Shown piece by piece: positions 8,228 through 49,054 of a DNA stretch of 49,164 bases. The position numbers were made by a program, and so were the translations under genes. The notes below the pieces were generated by a model, which worked only from the letters and a program-made list of their open reading frames with translations, was not told the origin of the DNA and did not search any database. The DNA lies in the IMG/VR virus record IMGVR_UViG_3300027908_000031, positions 1-49,164 of that record. One strand, written 5' to 3'. Numbering within the stretch: position 1 is the first letter of the stretch; each line of letters opens with the position of its first letter. The DNA comes from a virus.

Positions 8228-8431
8228 ATGACGAAGCACATGGACACCGTAGAATTCATGCTAGAGCAATTCCTAGCGGATGAGGACGAACCGACCACGC
8301 CAGGCGAAATGGCGTGGGTCCCGTGCGAGCATCTCGAGTCCACGAAGTGCCCTACGTGTAACGTGTGCGAAGCTTGCCGTGGTACGGGACAGGTTCTGTT
8401 GCCAGTGAACGCGGAGCGGAAGGTTATCTAA
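8228..8431 (+). CDS. Small Cys-rich protein with DnaJ-like knuckle
   Basis: 67 residues: acidic N-terminal helix (MDTVEFMLEQFLADEDE), then CEHLESTKCPTCNVCEACRG with C-x2-C-x-G-x-G, likely zinc binding. ATG 8228 sits 6 nt after TAAACT. The in-frame ATG at 8240 would instead use GGGAGG with 12-nt spacing and give 63 residues. The gene ends overlapping the stop of the convergent head morphogenesis gene by 4 nt. Confidence 0.65.
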   Translation: MTKHMDTVEFMLEQFLADEDEPTTPGEMAWVPCEHLESTKCPTCNVCEACRGTGQVLLPVNAERKVI

Positions 8432-24700: not shown

Positions 24701-25105
24701 GTGCAGCACTCCCTTCTTATTTCTCTTTTTCTTGCTGCATCCGTCCTACCAGCGGCCCTGTCCTCCTGTTCCTCTCCTGCATCGCAAGCCGGGCCTGACG
24801 CCAGTAACGTAGAAGTTAGCGTCGCCTCTCCCGACGCGGCGTCAGGCCCGGCTTTCGATGCAGGAATACAGCCCTTCAGTCCACCCAACAAGACTCCTCC
24901 GGATGCCGGAAACCCTTGGTGTCAACTCCTACAGTGTTATGACGTGCAAATACTCTTGCCAGAATGCGCGACGGAGTGCACACTTCTTCCTCCTGACGAG
25001 CAACACCTTATCGTTGGACCACAGTGTCAAGACTGCGCTAACCCAGTCGACGTCACGAATTGCGGGGCGTACTGTGTGGAGACGAGCGAACAGGATGGAG
25101 GCTAA
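24701..25105 (+). CDS. Asp-Ala-Gly-rich lipoprotein
   Basis: 134 residues. Signal peptide LLISLFLAASVLPAALSSCS with a Cys at the lipobox, then a low-complexity Ser/Pro/Asp/Ala linker (SQAGPDASNVEVSVASPDAA), then about eight Cys in the C-terminal domain, suggesting a disulfide-rich fold. GTG start set by TAAACT 6 nt upstream. Linker DNA contains a 28-bp inverted repeat. The style resembles Myxococcota lipoproteins, a clue to host or origin. Confidence 0.65.
   Translation: MQHSLLISLFLAASVLPAALSSCSSPASQAGPDASNVEVSVASPDAASGPAFDAGIQPFSPPNKTPPDAGNPWCQLLQCYDVQILLPECATECTLLPPDEQHLIVGPQCQDCANPVDVTNCGAYCVETSEQDGG
24775..24865. repeat. 28-bp inverted repeat inside lipoprotein gene
   Basis: Arms 24775-24802 and 24838-24865 are reverse complements with one mismatch, separated by 35 nt. 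They encode the Pro/Ala/Asp-rich linker on both sides. The mRNA would fold into a very stable hairpin. It may be structural, a decayed mobile hairpin, or selected at the RNA level. Confidence 0.85.
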
Positions 25106-43184: not shown

Positions 43185-44521
43185 GAGTTTCAGCCTCTCA
43201 AATATCCTCGTTCCGAGCGTGTCGACGCCAGTGGTCTTTTCGTTCTCGTGACAAGCTTAGTACGCCTGCGGGCGCAGGTGCTCAGCTTGGATCGGATGTT
43301 CATGCGGAACTTGAGCGCTACCTGAAAGGGGGGAGTATCAACTATAGCATCGAAGCCGGCAACATAGCTGCAGAAGGCTTGGAGTACTTGCCCATGCCTC
43401 TATCAAAGCCCTACACCGTGGAAGGGTCTTTCGAACTGGAGGCCCCCGATGACATTCTTTACACGGGGCGCATAGACTTAGAGATACCAGGAGATCCGCC
43501 AACAATTCTAGACCATAAGACGTCCAAGAATTTGAGATTTGTCAAGTCTCCTGAGGAGTTGAGAGGTGACCCTCAGGCCATTATCTACGGTGCTCATGCG
43601 TTGACTCGCTACGAATCCTCTGCCGTGGATTTAGTGTGGGTGTATTACGACACTGGAAAGTCTAAGCGTTCTAAGCGTGTGCACTTGCGCATGCTGAAAG
43701 ACGAGGTGATTACGGGATTTGAAAAAGTACACTTGACAGCATTGACCATGCAGGATATTGTAGCGTCAGGAGTACCAACGCTAGAGCTTCCTCCCTCACC
43801 AGAAGCCTGTGAGATGTTCGGAGGGTGCCCATTTCGTGCCGATTGTAACCTATCCCCCGCCCAGAGGAGAAAATCCATCATGACCCAGAGTGCGAATGAT
43901 TTCCTATCGCGTCTCAAGTCCCAAGTAACCGGTACCGCGGCCGCTCCGACGATGCCCGAACCTCCGTCCATGCCTAAGGCGCCTGAATTGCCGAAGTGGG
44001 CGACGGATGCCGTGGACCCCCGACAGCTAACCCGAACCCTTCAGCCTATTAACCCGCCCGCGCCCATCGCCGCGCCCGCGCCCGCGCCCGTGCCCCTTGA
44101 CCTCTCCGTGCCAGTGTCCTTCGCTGCTACCATGACAGCGTCGGCTAATGTCTCGCCAGAGAAACCCAAGCGCGGGCGACCCAAGAAGGAAGCCGATACT
44201 ATCCCCGCGCCTTCCCTGCCCGAGAACGCAGCGCAGACAACCCAAGCGTTCCGTTTCGACACGGTATACGTGGACTGTATGCCATTGAACGAGAACGTAA
44301 GCAGCGTCGCGTCCTATCTTCCTGTTATCCAACGGCTTATCGAGGAGGAATACCAGGTAGAGGATTGGCGCGCGGTGCCTTACGTGTCCGGCGCGGCGTT
44401 CTGTAAGGCGCTTCTGGCTATCGCCGACCGTAATATCGTGGTGGAGTCCGGCACGGCGGAGGGTGCGGCTTGTCTTACAACGCTCCTAGCAAATGCGGGG
44501 CGCGTGGTTAGGGGGATTTGA
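43181..44521 (+). CDS. PD-(D/E)XK nuclease (RecB/Cas4-like) with AT-hook
   Basis: 446 residues. SASQISSFRACRRQWSFRSR is the N-terminal Cys/arginine motif of PDDEXK_1 nucleases; GSDVHAELERYL gives the His, YTGRIDLEIPGDPPTILDHK carries the D and D-x-K catalytic pair, QAIIYGAHAL the QxxxY motif, and GGCPFRADC the distal Cys cluster of Cas4/AddB-type iron-sulfur nucleases. A Pro/Ala linker follows, with an AT-hook KPKRGRPKK, then a separate C-terminal domain. GTG start overlaps the previous stop. Confidence 0.82.
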   Translation: MRVSASQISSFRACRRQWSFRSRDKLSTPAGAGAQLGSDVHAELERYLKGGSINYSIEAGNIAAEGLEYLPMPLSKPYTVEGSFELEAPDDILYTGRIDLEIPGDPPTILDHKTSKNLRFVKSPEELRGDPQAIIYGAHALTRYESSAVDLVWVYYDTGKSKRSKRVHLRMLKDEVITGFEKVHLTALTMQDIVASGVPTLELPPSPEACEMFGGCPFRADCNLSPAQRRKSIMTQSANDFLSRLKSQVTGTAAAPTMPEPPSMPKAPELPKWATDAVDPRQLTRTLQPINPPAPIAAPAPAPVPLDLSVPVSFAATMTASANVSPEKPKRGRPKKEADTIPAPSLPENAAQTTQAFRFDTVYVDCMPLNENVSSVASYLPVIQRLIEEEYQVEDWRAVPYVSGAAFCKALLAIADRNIVVESGTAEGAACLTTLLANAGRVVRGI

Positions 44522-45384
44522 TGATCACTATCCGGGATGTATTGAGCAAACCACTTCTGGAAGTGGCGGACCTGCGGGGCGCGGACCTGCGGGGCGCGTA
44601 CCTGCGGGGCGCGTACCTGACGGGCGCGGACCTGCGGGGCGCGGACCTGCGGGGCGCGTACCTGCGGGGTGCGAACCTAAAGGGCGCGAACCTGACGGGC
44701 GCGAACCTGCGGGGTGTGGACCTGCGGGGCGCGAACCTGACGGGCGCGGACCTGCGGGGTGCGAACCTAACGGGCGCATACCTAACGGGCGCGAACCTGC
44801 CGGGCGCGGAATTGAGGGGCGCGGAATTGGGGGGCGCGAACCTGATGGGCGTCAACCTGACGGACGTCAACCTGACGGACGTCAACCTGACGGGCGCGAA
44901 CCTGATGGGCGTCAACCTGACGGACGTCAACCTGACGGACGTCAGGTTGACGGGCGCGAACCTGATGGGCGCGAACCTGATGGGCGCGAACCTGACGGGC
45001 GCGGACCTGACGGACGCGAACCTGATGGGCGCGAACCTGACGGGCGCGGACCTGACGGACGCGGACCTGAAGGACGCGGACCTGAAGGACGCCAACCTGG
45101 AGGATGTCGTATTACCAGACGGGCAAAAACTAATTGAATACATTCAGAAGCTTCCATATGCTCTCCTTACCAAAGGAGGCAAGACACTCGAGGAGGTTGT
45201 CGCTGCGTGGGACTCTCATACCTGGGAGGGCTGCCCGATGCACGTCGCGTTCGGGGCAGGTGGAATTCAGGAAGTTCCCGAATGCTACCGCGATGCGGCC
45301 AAGACCTTCGTTGCATTATTCGACGGGAAGCACATTCCGAAGCCCGCGGACCCCGAAATCAAGCCGGGCGATGCCCCAGCGTAG
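44521..45384 (+). CDS. Pentapeptide repeat protein with C-terminal domain
   Basis: 287 residues. About 35 tandem A-(D/N/Y)-L-x-x repeats form a predicted right-handed quadrilateral beta-helix, the fold of DNA-mimic proteins such as Qnr/MfpA. A 90-residue C-terminal domain follows (KLPYALLTKGGKTLEEVVAA, then WEGCPMHVAFGAG, CYRDAAKTFVALFDGKHIP) of a type seen after phage pentapeptide repeats. The DNA repeats are nearly identical 15-mers, so the array expanded recently. ATG 44521 overlaps the previous stop (TGATG). Function not established. Confidence 0.85.
   Translation: MITIRDVLSKPLLEVADLRGADLRGAYLRGAYLTGADLRGADLRGAYLRGANLKGANLTGANLRGVDLRGANLTGADLRGANLTGAYLTGANLPGAELRGAELGGANLMGVNLTDVNLTDVNLTGANLMGVNLTDVNLTDVRLTGANLMGANLMGANLTGADLTDANLMGANLTGADLTDADLKDADLKDANLEDVVLPDGQKLIEYIQKLPYALLTKGGKTLEEVVAAWDSHTWEGCPMHVAFGAGGIQEVPECYRDAAKTFVALFDGKHIPKPADPEIKPGDAPA
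44560..45105. repeat. 15-bp tandem DNA repeats encoding the pentapeptides
   Basis: GCGGACCTGCGGGGC-like units repeated about 35 times with drift from CTGCGGGGC (5' part) to CTGACGGAC and CTGATGGGC (3' part). Lack of stop codons produces long open frames on both strands that should not be read as genes. Confidence 0.9.
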
Positions 45385-47002
45385 ACTCTATCGAACACCA
45401 GAACACCATCGCATCTTCTCGCTTCCTACTAAACAACCCGTAGCCGATCTCTCCCCCTTGGACGACATTCTACGCCGTCCGGGGGGGACCATGTCGTTAC
45501 GTCCGGTGCAGCGGGAATCCTTGTACGAGCTCGGAACGTCTGGCGGGTTGTTCGGGCCATTAAGCGTAGGTACCGGGAAGACTTTGCTTTCCCTACTGGC
45601 GCCGGTCGTCGTCCAGTCCGCGCGTCCGATTCTTTTGATACCCGCAGCTCTTATCGAGAAGACCGAAAGGGACCGCAGGGAACTGTCTAAGCACTGGCTA
45701 AGCCCTAATACCTTGCGGGTAATGTCCTACGAGAGGCTCTCGCAGGTACAGAGCGAGAATACACTTACTTACTATAGACCCGACCTTATAATTTTAGACG
45801 AGGCACATCGTGTTAAGAATCGGCGCGCTGGCGTGACCCGACGTATCTTGAGGTACATGCACGCCAATCCCGAGACGAAGTGCGTTGCTATATCTGGTAC
45901 GATAATTTCCAAGTCCATCAAAGATTTCGCGCACATCATACGCTGGTGTCTTAAGGACAAGGCGCCCGTTCCTGAGACGGAAGACGAGGTCCAGTTGTGG
46001 GCGGATGCTTTGGACAGTGACGTGAACTTCCTAAATCGTGTGGACTCGTCCATCCTGGCGCCCACGATCGAGGAAGCGCGCAAGGTCTTCGCGGACCGTG
46101 TGCTGTCGACCCCCGGCGTGGTCTATTCCCGAGACGGCGGGATACCGAACGCCTTGAACATTAAAGGGCACATCATCGAAGCCCCCCCGGTGACGCAAGC
46201 GAATTTCAAGGGCATTCGGGAGACTATGGTAACCCCTACGGGGTGGGCTTTCGCTGAGGCTGCGCAACTATGGCAATACTGTAGGGAACTGGCTTTGGGC
46301 TTAATCTACCGCTGGAATCCCTACCCCCCAGAAGATTGGCGCAATGCTCGGCGGGATTGGGCTTCGTTCGTTAGAGAGACTATTGCCCACAGCCACACTC
46401 TAGATACTGAGCTGCATGTTGCACAGGCCGTAGACAGGGGCGACTTGGATAGCGCCGAGCTCGTGGCGTGGCGAGCGGTGCGGGATTCCTTCAAGCCCAA
46501 CGTCGTGCCAGTGTGGTACTCCGAGAACGTGATCGAGTGGTGCGCGCGATGGTTGCAAGAGCCCGGGATCTGCTGGGTGGAGCACACACTCTTTGCGCAA
46601 AGATTGTCCGAACGCACGGGGGTTCCTTATTACGGAGGGGAGGGCCTGGATGCGCAAGGTAAGTTCATAGAGGACAATCCCGGAGGACCTACCATCGCCT
46701 CCATTGATGCTAATTGCACGGGTAGGAATCTTCAGTACAAGTGGTCTCGGAATCTCATCGTCTCACCGTTGTCGTCCGCCAAGAAGTGTGAGCAGCTGCT
46801 AGGTAGGACACATCGCACGGGACAGCCGCAGGACGAGGTTACGTGCGATGTCCTATTTGCTTGTAGAGAGAATTTCGAGAGTTGGGAAAAAGCGCTAACT
46901 TTGGCGCGTGCGACTCAGGACCTTACGGGAACACCAAAGCTGCTCTTGGCGACCTTAGACATCCCCTCCCAGGAAGGGCTTACGGGCGCGGTGTGGAAAT
47001 AA
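45371..47002 (+). CDS. SNF2/DEAD-like superfamily 2 helicase
   Basis: 543 residues. Walker A GPLSVGTGKTLLSLLAP, motif Ia PILLIPAAL, motif II LIILDEAHRVKNRRAG (DEAH), motif III CVAISGTIIS and motif VI CEQLLGRTHRTGQPQDEVTC, the SNF2-type arrangement (LLGR-HR-GQ). An ATP-driven DNA translocase for replication or recombination. ATG 45371 (14-nt overlap with the pentapeptide gene) is chosen; the frame opening from 45134 is shadow sequence. Confidence 0.85.
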   Translation: MPQRRLYRTPEHHRIFSLPTKQPVADLSPLDDILRRPGGTMSLRPVQRESLYELGTSGGLFGPLSVGTGKTLLSLLAPVVVQSARPILLIPAALIEKTERDRRELSKHWLSPNTLRVMSYERLSQVQSENTLTYYRPDLIILDEAHRVKNRRAGVTRRILRYMHANPETKCVAISGTIISKSIKDFAHIIRWCLKDKAPVPETEDEVQLWADALDSDVNFLNRVDSSILAPTIEEARKVFADRVLSTPGVVYSRDGGIPNALNIKGHIIEAPPVTQANFKGIRETMVTPTGWAFAEAAQLWQYCRELALGLIYRWNPYPPEDWRNARRDWASFVRETIAHSHTLDTELHVAQAVDRGDLDSAELVAWRAVRDSFKPNVVPVWYSENVIEWCARWLQEPGICWVEHTLFAQRLSERTGVPYYGGEGLDAQGKFIEDNPGGPTIASIDANCTGRNLQYKWSRNLIVSPLSSAKKCEQLLGRTHRTGQPQDEVTCDVLFACRENFESWEKALTLARATQDLTGTPKLLLATLDIPSQEGLTGAVWK

Positions 47003-47021
47003 TTAGAAATCGTATGTCGTG

Positions 47022-47052
47022 TTGAGAGAAAAGCACCCCTACGCAGTATACT
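47022..47052 (+). promoter_or_regulatory. Sigma-70-like promoter before structured leader
   Basis: -35 TTGAGA (47022-47027, 5/6 match), 19-nt spacer, -10 TATACT (47047-47052, 5/6 match). Transcription would start near 47059-47060, immediately before the large hairpin, giving an mRNA that begins with it. Looks host-type and differs from the TAAACT series, suggesting early expression. Confidence 0.6.
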
Positions 47053-47060
47053 CCCCATAG

Positions 47061-47152
47061 CAAGTAGGAAGGCGGCGGCGGAGCGACGGGGCGACCGGTG
47101 CCCTCCTCACCGACGAAACACAGCTCCCGTTCCGCCGTTGCCTTCCTACTTG
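47061..47152 (+). ncRNA. Large 5' leader hairpin with anti-Shine-Dalgarno loop
   Basis: Arms 47061-47082 and 47131-47152 pair over 22 positions (two G-U wobbles), continued after a 3-nt bulge by ACGGG/CCCGT. The enclosed region has a second hairpin CGGTG-CCCTCCT-CACCG (47096-47112) whose loop is complementary to the GAGGA ribosome site at 47168-47172. Suggests translational control or mRNA stabilisation of the downstream gene. A weak terminator (TTTC after the stem) is an alternative. Confidence 0.65.
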
Positions 47153-47178
47153 TTTCTAACCTAGAACGAGGACTAACA

Positions 47179-47652
47179 ATGGGTATCTTTGAAGGCTTGA
47201 AACATGCTAAGACGAAGACGAGCGACCGCGGCGTTTGGTTGAACCCTGGCGTATACCGTGTCAAGGTTGCCAAGTGCATCTGGAAGCAGACCAGATCCAA
47301 AGGAGAGGCTTTCATTATGGAGATGGACATTCTAAAGTCGACGTACAACCCACAACAGCACGTTGTGGACGGGCGAAAGATTGCGGAGGCGCCGAACGAA
47401 GCAGGCACCCGAGCAACCTGGTATCAGTCGTGCCGTGATAGGGACGTTGGCTTTGGAGCCCTGAAGGGTTTTGCGGCGGACATTACCGGAGCGAAAGTGG
47501 AAGACCCCGTCTTCGTTTCGGCTGTTGAGGGTCTGCTTGAACAGTTTCTTGAGGGGGCAATTGACGGCGTGGAGTTGAATGTTGAAGTATTGAAGGTGAA
47601 AACTAAGGCGGGTACCGACTTTTCTTTGCACAGGTTCAAGAAGGCTGCATAG
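47179..47652 (+). CDS. DUF669-like protein (probable ssDNA-binding/recombination accessory)
   Basis: 157 residues. MGIFEGLKHAKTKTSDRGVW, LNPGVYRVKVAKCIWKQTRS and KGEAFIMEMDILKSTYNP resemble the DUF669 group of phage proteins that accompany nucleases and helicases and are thought to bind single-stranded DNA (OB-like beta barrel). Start ATG 47179 has GAGGA 6 nt upstream; the longer frame to 47098 is not used. Controlled by the hairpin leader. Family call moderate. Confidence 0.65.
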   Translation: MGIFEGLKHAKTKTSDRGVWLNPGVYRVKVAKCIWKQTRSKGEAFIMEMDILKSTYNPQQHVVDGRKIAEAPNEAGTRATWYQSCRDRDVGFGALKGFAADITGAKVEDPVFVSAVEGLLEQFLEGAIDGVELNVEVLKVKTKAGTDFSLHRFKKAA

Positions 47653-47661
47653 GTCTTTCTT

Positions 47662-47730
47662 AGCCCTCGGCGTCATGCCGGCTAGGTGTAGGTGGGTTCA
47701 AGTCCCAAACGCCTAGGGCTCTTTTTCTTT
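47662..47730 (+). ncRNA. tRNA-like three-way junction followed by T-run
   Basis: Outer stem AGCCCT/AGGGCT (47662-47667, 47715-47720) encloses hairpin CGGC-GTCAT-GCCG and an arm AGGTGT/ACGCCT topped by GGG-TTCAAGT-CCC, whose loop matches the tRNA T-loop consensus. An anticodon arm is missing, so it is not a working tRNA. CTTTTTCTTT follows, making a plausible terminator. Could be a tRNA relic, a tRNA-like regulatory element or a fancy terminator. Confidence 0.55.
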
Positions 47731-47740
47731 AGGAGGAAAC

Positions 47741-48013
47741 ATGTACCACGTTACTGCGTCGGTATCGGGCAAGGCGCCACCCATCAAGACCTTCGTGGTT
47801 TTGGATAGTGCTATCGAGTTCGCGCGCAAGTGCGCGGGGCAGGGATGGCAAGTGGTCGCCGTGGTGGACCATGACGGTTACGATACCCATATCCGAGGTT
47901 TCGGGTTAAGCGGTATCTTCCGCTGGGCGTTGCCGTGCAAGTCTTGCGACGAAGAGGGTTGCGAACGTTGCCAGGAATGGGGCGCGGTAGTGGACAACAC
48001 TAAGCAGGTGTAG
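47741..48013 (+). CDS. Small zinc-binding hypothetical protein
   Basis: 90 residues. Alpha/beta first half (FVVLDSAIEFARKCAGQGWQ) and CKSCDEEGCERCQEWG with four Cys near the end. Ideal AGGAGG ribosome site. Unknown function. Confidence 0.65.
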   Translation: MYHVTASVSGKAPPIKTFVVLDSAIEFARKCAGQGWQVVAVVDHDGYDTHIRGFGLSGIFRWALPCKSCDEEGCERCQEWGAVVDNTKQV

Positions 48014-48020
48014 GAGTGAA

Positions 48021-48110
48021 ATGACCGTCACATCACCACTGGCGAGTGGAATAGCGAGACCAAGCCTAGCAGCCTATAAATGCCCCTCAACTCTACGGAA
48101 GCAAGGGTGA
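48021..48110 (+). CDS. Possible micro-ORF, 29 residues
   Basis: ATG with AGGAG 4 nt upstream, encoding MTVTSPLASGIARPSLAAYK and a short basic tail. No family; plausible from ribosome site and tight spacing only. Confidence 0.35.
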   Translation: MTVTSPLASGIARPSLAAYKCPSTLRKQG

Positions 48111-48116
48111 CAAGTG

Positions 48117-48263
48117 ATGCGAGATTCTTGCCTTCTACTCTCGTTCTTTTGCTTGGTCGCCTGCGCTCTTGCGGGACTTGCAAATTTATACGGATGGTCT
48201 ATACTCTGTTTTGCCATTGGCCTTAGCTGGTACGGGCTGGGCACGGCTACTGACAACAAATAA
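48117..48263 (+). CDS. Small two-span membrane protein
   Basis: 48 residues: LLLSFFCLVACALAGLANLY then SILCFAIGLSWYGLGTA, two hydrophobic segments with a short loop. Follows the micro-ORF closely and ends 10 nt before the next gene. Could be an early membrane-acting protein. Confidence 0.55.
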   Translation: MRDSCLLLSFFCLVACALAGLANLYGWSILCFAIGLSWYGLGTATDNK

Positions 48264-48273
48264 GGAGCATGAC

Positions 48274-48537
48274 ATGAAAAAGATTGTGGAAATTGATCCG
48301 AAGTCGGGAATGGAGTCTTTGCTGGGCGCGCGAGTCTTGCTCATGTGTATGAATTATTTCTATGTTGGCAAACTCATGGGCGTGAATCGTTCGTGCGTGT
48401 TGCTACACGATGCATCAATCGTGTATGAAACGGGTGACTGGTCCGCGGCATCGTGGAAAGATGCGCAATCGATCAAGCGCTCCGCGGTCTACGTACGGTT
48501 GGCAGCCATAGAGTCGTTCATGCCCGAGAGAGGGTGA
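48274..48537 (+). CDS. Conserved hypothetical phage protein
   Basis: 87 residues. VLLMCMNYFYVGKLMGVNRS, LHDASIVYETGDWSAASWKD AQ and a final RLAAIESF match a small phage family common near replication genes (form VFLFC--Y-Y-G-L-GV--D-V-L--A-IVYETG). Ribosome site AAGGAG before ATG. Function unknown. Confidence 0.7.
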   Translation: MKKIVEIDPKSGMESLLGARVLLMCMNYFYVGKLMGVNRSCVLLHDASIVYETGDWSAASWKDAQSIKRSAVYVRLAAIESFMPERG

Positions 48538-48545
48538 GCGCCACG

Positions 48546-48800
48546 ATGCGCAGTCGGCGCCAGATATATCTCCGGTCGCGGTCGCGGTCGGGGTCGGGGT
48601 CGCAGTCGGGGTCTTGGTCGTGGTCGCGGCCGCGGTCGTGGTCGTGGTCGTGGTCGTGGTCGGGGTCGTGGTCGGGGTCGCGGTCGTGGTCACAGTCGCG
48701 GTCGCGGTCGTGGTCTTGGTCTTGGTCTTGGTCGGGGTCGAGGGAGAGGTCGTGGTCGCGGTCGCGGGAGCGGGAGCGGTCGGGGTCTTGGTCGTTATGA
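48546..48800 (+). CDS. Ser-Arg/Ser-Trp dipeptide repeat ORF, copy 1
   Basis: 84 residues: head MRSRRQIYLRS, then about 35 Ser-X dipeptides (X is Arg, Gly, Trp or Gln) and an R-E-R-E-R-S-G terminal motif. Encoded by GGTCGN hexamers. The ATG follows GAGGGTGAG; the stop shares bases with an ATGATG restart of the next copy. Resembles eukaryotic RS domains in composition; likely nucleic acid-binding or phase-separating if expressed. No known phage family comes to mind. Confidence 0.5.
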   Translation: MRSRRQIYLRSRSRSGSGSQSGSWSWSRPRSWSWSWSWSGSWSGSRSWSQSRSRSWSWSWSWSGSRERSWSRSRERERSGSWSL

Positions 48801-49054
48801 TGCGCAGTCGGCGCCAGATATATCTCCGGTCGCAGTCGGGGTCTTGGTCGGGGTCGCAGTCGGGGTCTTGGTCGGGGTCGCGGCCGCGGTCGTGGTCGTG
48901 GTCGCGGTCGTGGTCACAGTCGGGGTCGCGGCCGCGGTCGTGGTCGGGGTCGCGGTCGTGGTCACAGTCGCGGTCGTGGTCGTGGTCGTGGTCGGGGTCG
49001 TGGTCGTGGTCGGGGTCGCGGTCGTGGGAGCGGGAGCGGTCGGGGTCGCTATGA
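48797..49054 (+). CDS. Ser-Arg/Ser-Trp dipeptide repeat ORF, copy 2
   Basis: 85 residues with the same MRSRRQIYLRS head and RERERSG ending, joined to copy 1 by an ATGATGA-type overlap (stop TGA within ATGATG). The head DNA (first about 33 bp after the ATG) is identical to copy 1, while the internal Trp/Gly/Gln pattern differs, so tandem duplication was followed by repeat-length turnover. Confidence 0.5.
   Translation: MMRSRRQIYLRSQSGSWSGSQSGSWSGSRPRSWSWSRSWSQSGSRPRSWSGSRSWSQSRSWSWSWSGSWSWSGSRSWERERSGSL

Follow-up and report, generated by a model that had tools for sequence, protein, structure and literature searches.

We analyzed a window of 49,164 bases, the whole virus record of an uncultured tailed phage that encodes a contractile-tail sheath and a D5-type primase. 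Its right-hand genes, from about 42.4 kb onward, are all oriented rightward (Table 1). Inside this rightward unit, the 176-nt spacer between the helicase cistron and the SSB-like cistron contains a long hairpin; to judge from gene order, the two genes probably share one transcript. A DNA search of phage records with positions 46000-49000 found no match. Low-complexity GGTCGT/GGTCGC repeats make up both contig ends (1-130 and 48560-49164), which makes a circular or circularly permuted genome probable, with the assembly broken within the repeat. At the right end, a recurring start, MRSRRQIYLRS, precedes the repeats, whose coding potential is for proteins rich in Arg-Ser/Arg-Gly. The pentapeptide-repeat-type gene (44493-45137) consists of strongly repetitive DNA and yields very stable but repeat-derived folds.

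Table 1. Features of the helicase-SSB region of the window.
Feature	Position	Strand or direction	Remarks
Endonuclease VII-like, PD-(D/E)XK exonuclease, pentapeptide-repeat protein, SNF2/DEAD-type helicase, SSB-like gene	from ~42.4 kb, in this order	rightward	
SNF2/DEAD-type helicase gene	45134..47002	+	conserved family neighbor, upstream of SSB-like gene
Promoter-like TTGAGA-19 nt-TATACT	47022..47052	+	weak; spacer too long
CCCAU	47054..47058	+	predicted pairing with AUGGG 47179-47183 (start codon), only in transcripts beginning upstream; model-dependent
Long hairpin	47059..47154	+	27 contiguous pairs (47059-47085 with 47128-47154), 42-nt apical region
Nested hairpin CGGTG/CACCG	47096..47112	+	7-nt loop CCCTCCT (proposed anti-Shine-Dalgarno); present in MFE structure
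Spacer between hairpin and ATG	47155..47178	+	Shine-Dalgarno GAGGA at 47168-47172; 42% A
SSB-like OB-fold gene	47179..47652	+	157 aa; weak DUF669, PrgE-like fold

An earlier note on this DNA had called the gene behind the hairpin DUF669-like, a label that its sequence supports only weakly. The Pfam DUF669 match is below the cutoff (13.7 bits against 21, E 0.071), no member of set A3 reaches E 0.01 for this family, and a profile search of PDB sequences returned chance-level matches only. For an AlphaFold2 model of the protein, computed with eight relatives and reaching a mean pLDDT of 77, PrgE is the best Foldseek match (E 2e-3, prob 1.00), and VIA-align superimposes PrgE at Z 8.3 over 114 residues (rmsd 5.5), the next unrelated rows scoring 5.4. 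Because SSB function has been demonstrated for a DUF669 protein from phage HK620 (PMC5928155) and PrgE is the best fold match, we call the protein SSB-like; most likely it is an OB-fold SSB of the DUF669/PrgE type, which would bind ssDNA. An in-frame GTG within the hairpin, at 47098, could lengthen the reading frame; the ATG at 47179 fits the N-termini of the relatives, which align from that codon (MGIF/MGIM/MGFM). Right after the gene, at 47651-47731, lies a tRNA-like element with the T-arm motif GTGGGTTCAAGTCCCAA, acceptor-like pairing and then CTTTTTCTTT, which ARAGORN rejects as a tRNA. Since a tRNA gene directly follows the SSB-like gene in three relatives (L005, L008 and L010), this element may represent a degenerate or atypical tRNA.

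As + strand RNA, the stem of the junction hairpin comprises 23 Watson-Crick and 4 G-U pairs with 0 mismatches, and its arms are 88% Watson-Crick complementary over 25 nt (47061-47085 and 47128-47152). The segment 47040-47200 folds to -69.9 kcal/mol (z -5.62; 0/200 shuffles as good), the stem by itself giving about -60 kcal/mol, whereas the opposite (minus) strand of the same segment reaches a z of only -2.69. In a contig-wide stem scan the junction scored 28 pairs, compared with 18-19 for the best stems in three Markov-shuffled genomes; the only stems above the shuffled level were the junction, a second site at 24775-24865 (26 pairs) and low-complexity repeats. With scan and fold this far beyond shuffles, the hairpin that the earlier note drew at 47061-47152, with an extension, is real, and the inner hairpin is part of the predicted minimum-energy structure. 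All 4 non-Watson-Crick positions of the stem are G-U on the + strand and none is A-C, as all would be on the other strand; because random transitions would produce this pattern with a chance of 1 in 16, it hints at, and does no more than hint at, relevance of the + strand RNA. No Rfam family exceeded its gathering cutoff in the window, where the sub-threshold matches were hairpin-shape matches to microRNA models only, and a pattern search of IMG/VR found no other copies of the junction stem.

The second site holds an even stronger hairpin, 91 nt in total with 28-nt arms that are 96% complementary, in frame within a lipoprotein ORF (24701-25105). It too has a nested hairpin with a 7-nt pyrimidine loop (CCTCTCC); its length is about that of the SSB-leader hairpin (92 nt) and the loops are similar, but the two have no common sequence. 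Its presence inside a lipoprotein gene means that long hairpins in this contig need not be regulatory.

Searching IMG/VR with one protein at a time (SSB, helicase or primase) found no relatives. A two-sequence helicase alignment (with MW202816.1) opened the family, giving seven loci, and a nine-sequence alignment then added 67 new or overlapping loci; bacterial genomes searched with the helicase alignment yielded no relatives. The helicase gene is followed by the SSB-like gene in nearly all of about 65 relatives, often across a spacer of just 3-40 nt. None of the roughly 60 relatives with the same gene order has a window-like stem at this junction, where most show at most 14 pairs; in the sister contig L011, nearest to the window in a quick version of a helicase tree, the spacer is 42 nt and has no hairpin. 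The hairpin is therefore not a conserved leader of the SSB-like gene.

Without homologues of the stem, the covariation proposed as a check cannot be sought for the window's own hairpin; compensatory changes do appear in a neighboring clade. Three relatives (L015, L041 and L060), next nearest by tree path, carry a hairpin of their own at the same junction, with shared flanks (GATCG...CGCGGGAATTTTTCCCGTC) around a stem that differs in sequence. In their alignment 96.1% of cells are paired and 5 of 17 pairs have changed on both sides; pairing as good arises in 2/500 shuffles, and sliding the partners abolishes the signal. These data, from three sequences only, point to a structure kept by selection. 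The GGGAATTTTTCCC motif of this clade's leader has 51 other matches in IMG/VR, which look like ordinary terminators of unrelated phages and were set aside.

Across the family, long hairpins gather around the SSB gene. When 63 loci were scanned for hairpins of at least 16 pairs with at most 1 mismatch, 16 of the 57 found lay within 200 nt of the SSB gene, in 4% of the sequence (p 9e-10). Their density is 0.094/kb overall, rising to 1.04/kb over the 200 nt that follow the SSB stop and to 0.24/kb over the 200 nt that precede the start. Counted per gene, against a control of other genes from the same loci, called crudely as longest ORFs, the downstream excess is clear (11/56 SSB stops followed by a long hairpin versus 12/361 other genes, p 4e-5) and the upstream excess is not significant (3/56 versus 12/361, p 0.33). 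The downstream hairpins of L038, L068, L029 and L009 carry T-runs and may simply be terminators; those of L037, L011 and L053, also downstream, lack a U-run and immediately precede the ribosome site of the following gene. In L055 and L065, the hairpin after the SSB gene keeps its pairing through changes. Further, the leaders and ribosome sites of the family's SSB genes are rich in A, with a fraction of 0.38 that exceeds the values of other genes (0.25, p 5e-16) and of the helicase (0.23, p 4e-10). This fits strong translation or an SSB-binding site alike and does not discriminate between them. The window's own -40 leader has 0.275 A, against the 42% A of the 24 nt after the stem.

The earlier note had also placed a sigma-70-like promoter so that the mRNA would begin at the hairpin. 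Both hexamers are present and match the consensus at 10/12 positions, but chance alone would place about 3 equally good sites on each strand of the contig, and a promoter scan allowing 16-18 nt spacers does not list the site, whose spacer is 19 nt. Its placement close to the hairpin is its sole notable feature, and no relative supports a start near 47060. Where the transcript begins bears on the predicted state of the start codon, which is unpaired with a probability of 0.07-0.53 in transcripts that start upstream, compared with 0.54-0.77 for RNA starting at 47058 or 47061; the masking by CCCAU behind the lower values varies with the length folded. The Shine-Dalgarno sequence is predicted to be unpaired with a probability of about 0.15-0.6.

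According to the same note, the CCCTCCT loop could pair with the GAGGA ribosome site, in a switchable RNA that might be a thermosensor; as an anti-Shine-Dalgarno switch, such pairing would turn translation off. TCCTC can indeed pair with GAGGA, but its final C is already within the inner stem. An exact complement of that particular 5-mer in the apical region has a P of 0.023 in shuffled loops, which favors such a switch, whereas any match of at least 5 nt between the loop and the ribosome-site region has a P of 0.16, and the best loop-to-leader duplex energy is ordinary (P 0.285). The loops of the covarying hairpins in L015, L041 and L060 hold no complement of their own Shine-Dalgarno sequences. 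As for a thermosensor, melting of a stem of this stability is not credible. We consider a switch of either kind very improbable. A better candidate for masking of a Shine-Dalgarno sequence than the window's hairpin occurs in the relative L010, where a hairpin of about 17-20 pairs (8228-8306) lies between tRNA-Glu and the next gene, and its 3' arm contains that gene's GGGAGGG, directly before the ATG.

Our leading explanation, to which we give a little less than an even chance, is that the hairpin is an intercistronic (or 5'-terminal) mRNA element that sets the SSB cistron off from that of the helicase by cleavage, protection or both, and leaves the ribosome site open. RNase III or another double-strand nuclease of the host would cut the long double-stranded stem, and/or the stem would block exonucleases and 5'-end-dependent decay. 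The SSB message would then become a separate unit, more stable than that of the helicase, and its ribosome site would be accessible just downstream of the stem. In transcripts that start upstream, CCCAU beside the stem may mask the start codon; if this masking is real, processing or an internal start would act as the step that switches translation on. RNase III hairpins are known from T7 early mRNA and from the lambda N leader, where cleavage relieves translational repression. The junction hairpin resembles them as a long intercistronic or leader double-stranded RNA stem in a phage, and differs in that its sequence and position are unrelated and its cleavage is a proposal. The stability of the stem and the same-strand neighboring genes on both sides favor separation of the cistrons; against it, L011 and most relatives have no upstream hairpin. 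In its broader form, the earlier suggestion of a stabilizer or other cis-regulatory RNA is plausible, given an SSB-like gene product, hairpins that recur beside the gene in relatives and compensatory pairs in one clade.

The hairpin might instead have no role in mRNA: errors of replication or repair may have left a neutral quasi-palindrome in the DNA, or the palindrome may be a small mobile element. The almost perfect 28-nt stem inside the lipoprotein ORF and the bare junction of the nearest relative are what such an origin would lead one to expect. A mobile or neutral palindrome is harder to reconcile with the failure to find stem copies in IMG/VR by pattern, with the fact that the window's two hairpins share no sequence family, with non-Watson-Crick positions that all keep the + strand RNA paired, and with the clustering of the relatives' hairpins at SSB borders with compensatory changes; we regard it as rather unlikely. 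The hairpin could also act as a terminator or attenuator of transcription between the helicase and SSB genes, perhaps with antiterminator read-through. Its G+C stem is strong and, if the last stem pairs are assigned to the tail, leads into UUGUUUCU, and T-runs do occur in the SSB-flanking hairpins of L038 and L068. At the junction, however, a scan lists no terminator-like site on either strand, the stem is followed by TCTAACC with no U-run of at least 4, a 27-bp stem with a 42-nt apical region is atypical, and termination here would deprive the SSB gene of its transcript, since no promoter fits between stem and ATG. An intrinsic terminator was rejected for want of the U-run, and termination or attenuation in general seems decidedly unlikely.

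Autogenous control, another of the earlier suggestions, would have the SSB-like protein nucleate at the structured leader, spread over the open A-rich ribosome site and repress its own translation, as gp32 of phage T4 does. The SSB-like predicted fold, the proven SSB of HK620 and the A-rich SSB leaders of the family are consistent with such an operator, and the T4 operator likewise combines a 5' structure with an unstructured ribosome site (PMC535899). Yet the MFE structure, from folding programs that cannot predict pseudoknots, is a nested hairpin, the window's -40 leader is hardly A-rich, an A-rich open ribosome site is expected of any highly expressed gene, and most relatives lack the 5' structure. 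We judge an operator of this kind unlikely here. A wider version, in which phages with PrgE/DUF669-type SSBs control SSB at the RNA level, independently of T4 gp32, through border hairpins whose stems change sequence and keep pairing and through an A-rich open ribosome site bound by the SSB itself, we consider quite unlikely.

Separation of the SSB cistron from the helicase cistron would have precedents in their working. In phage T4, an RNase E cut at -71 frees the gene 32 message from a polycistron; this very stable message (PMC3014915) also contains the structured operator on which its own product acts (PMC535899). At the junction described here, too, structured RNA immediately precedes a phage SSB cistron within a putative polycistronic unit, and a putatively open ribosome site follows. 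Unlike the T4 element, a pseudoknot of about 28 nt with UUAAA repeats, it is a 27-bp stem with a nested hairpin and no such repeats, and its SSB is of the unrelated DUF669/PrgE type, known here from sequence and predicted fold. In the Clostridium cip-cel operon, stem-loops set cistron ratios through selective RNA processing and stabilization (PMC4423207), and the likeness is that of intergenic stem-loops at the borders of cistrons needed in differing amounts; there, the effective stem-loops are mapped to the 3' ends of highly transcribed genes, whereas the window's hairpin is 5' of its gene. The parallels with T4 gene 32 and cip-cel are of apparent working, not of descent.

SSB is needed in stoichiometric and helicase in catalytic amounts, and a hairpin that sets the SSB message apart would explain how both can come from one operon. 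If so, these phages would offer a second, independent system beside T4 gene 32 for studying the control of SSB levels. The downstream SSB hairpins, the A-rich SSB ribosome sites and the compensatory stems of one clade make the question testable by comparison.

Hairpins also occur at other genes of the family. Several relatives have hairpin matches near the helicase start, which may lie within the coding N-terminus, and in L005 a nearly perfect short-loop hairpin of about 22 bp (237-302) precedes the primase gene by about 32 nt.
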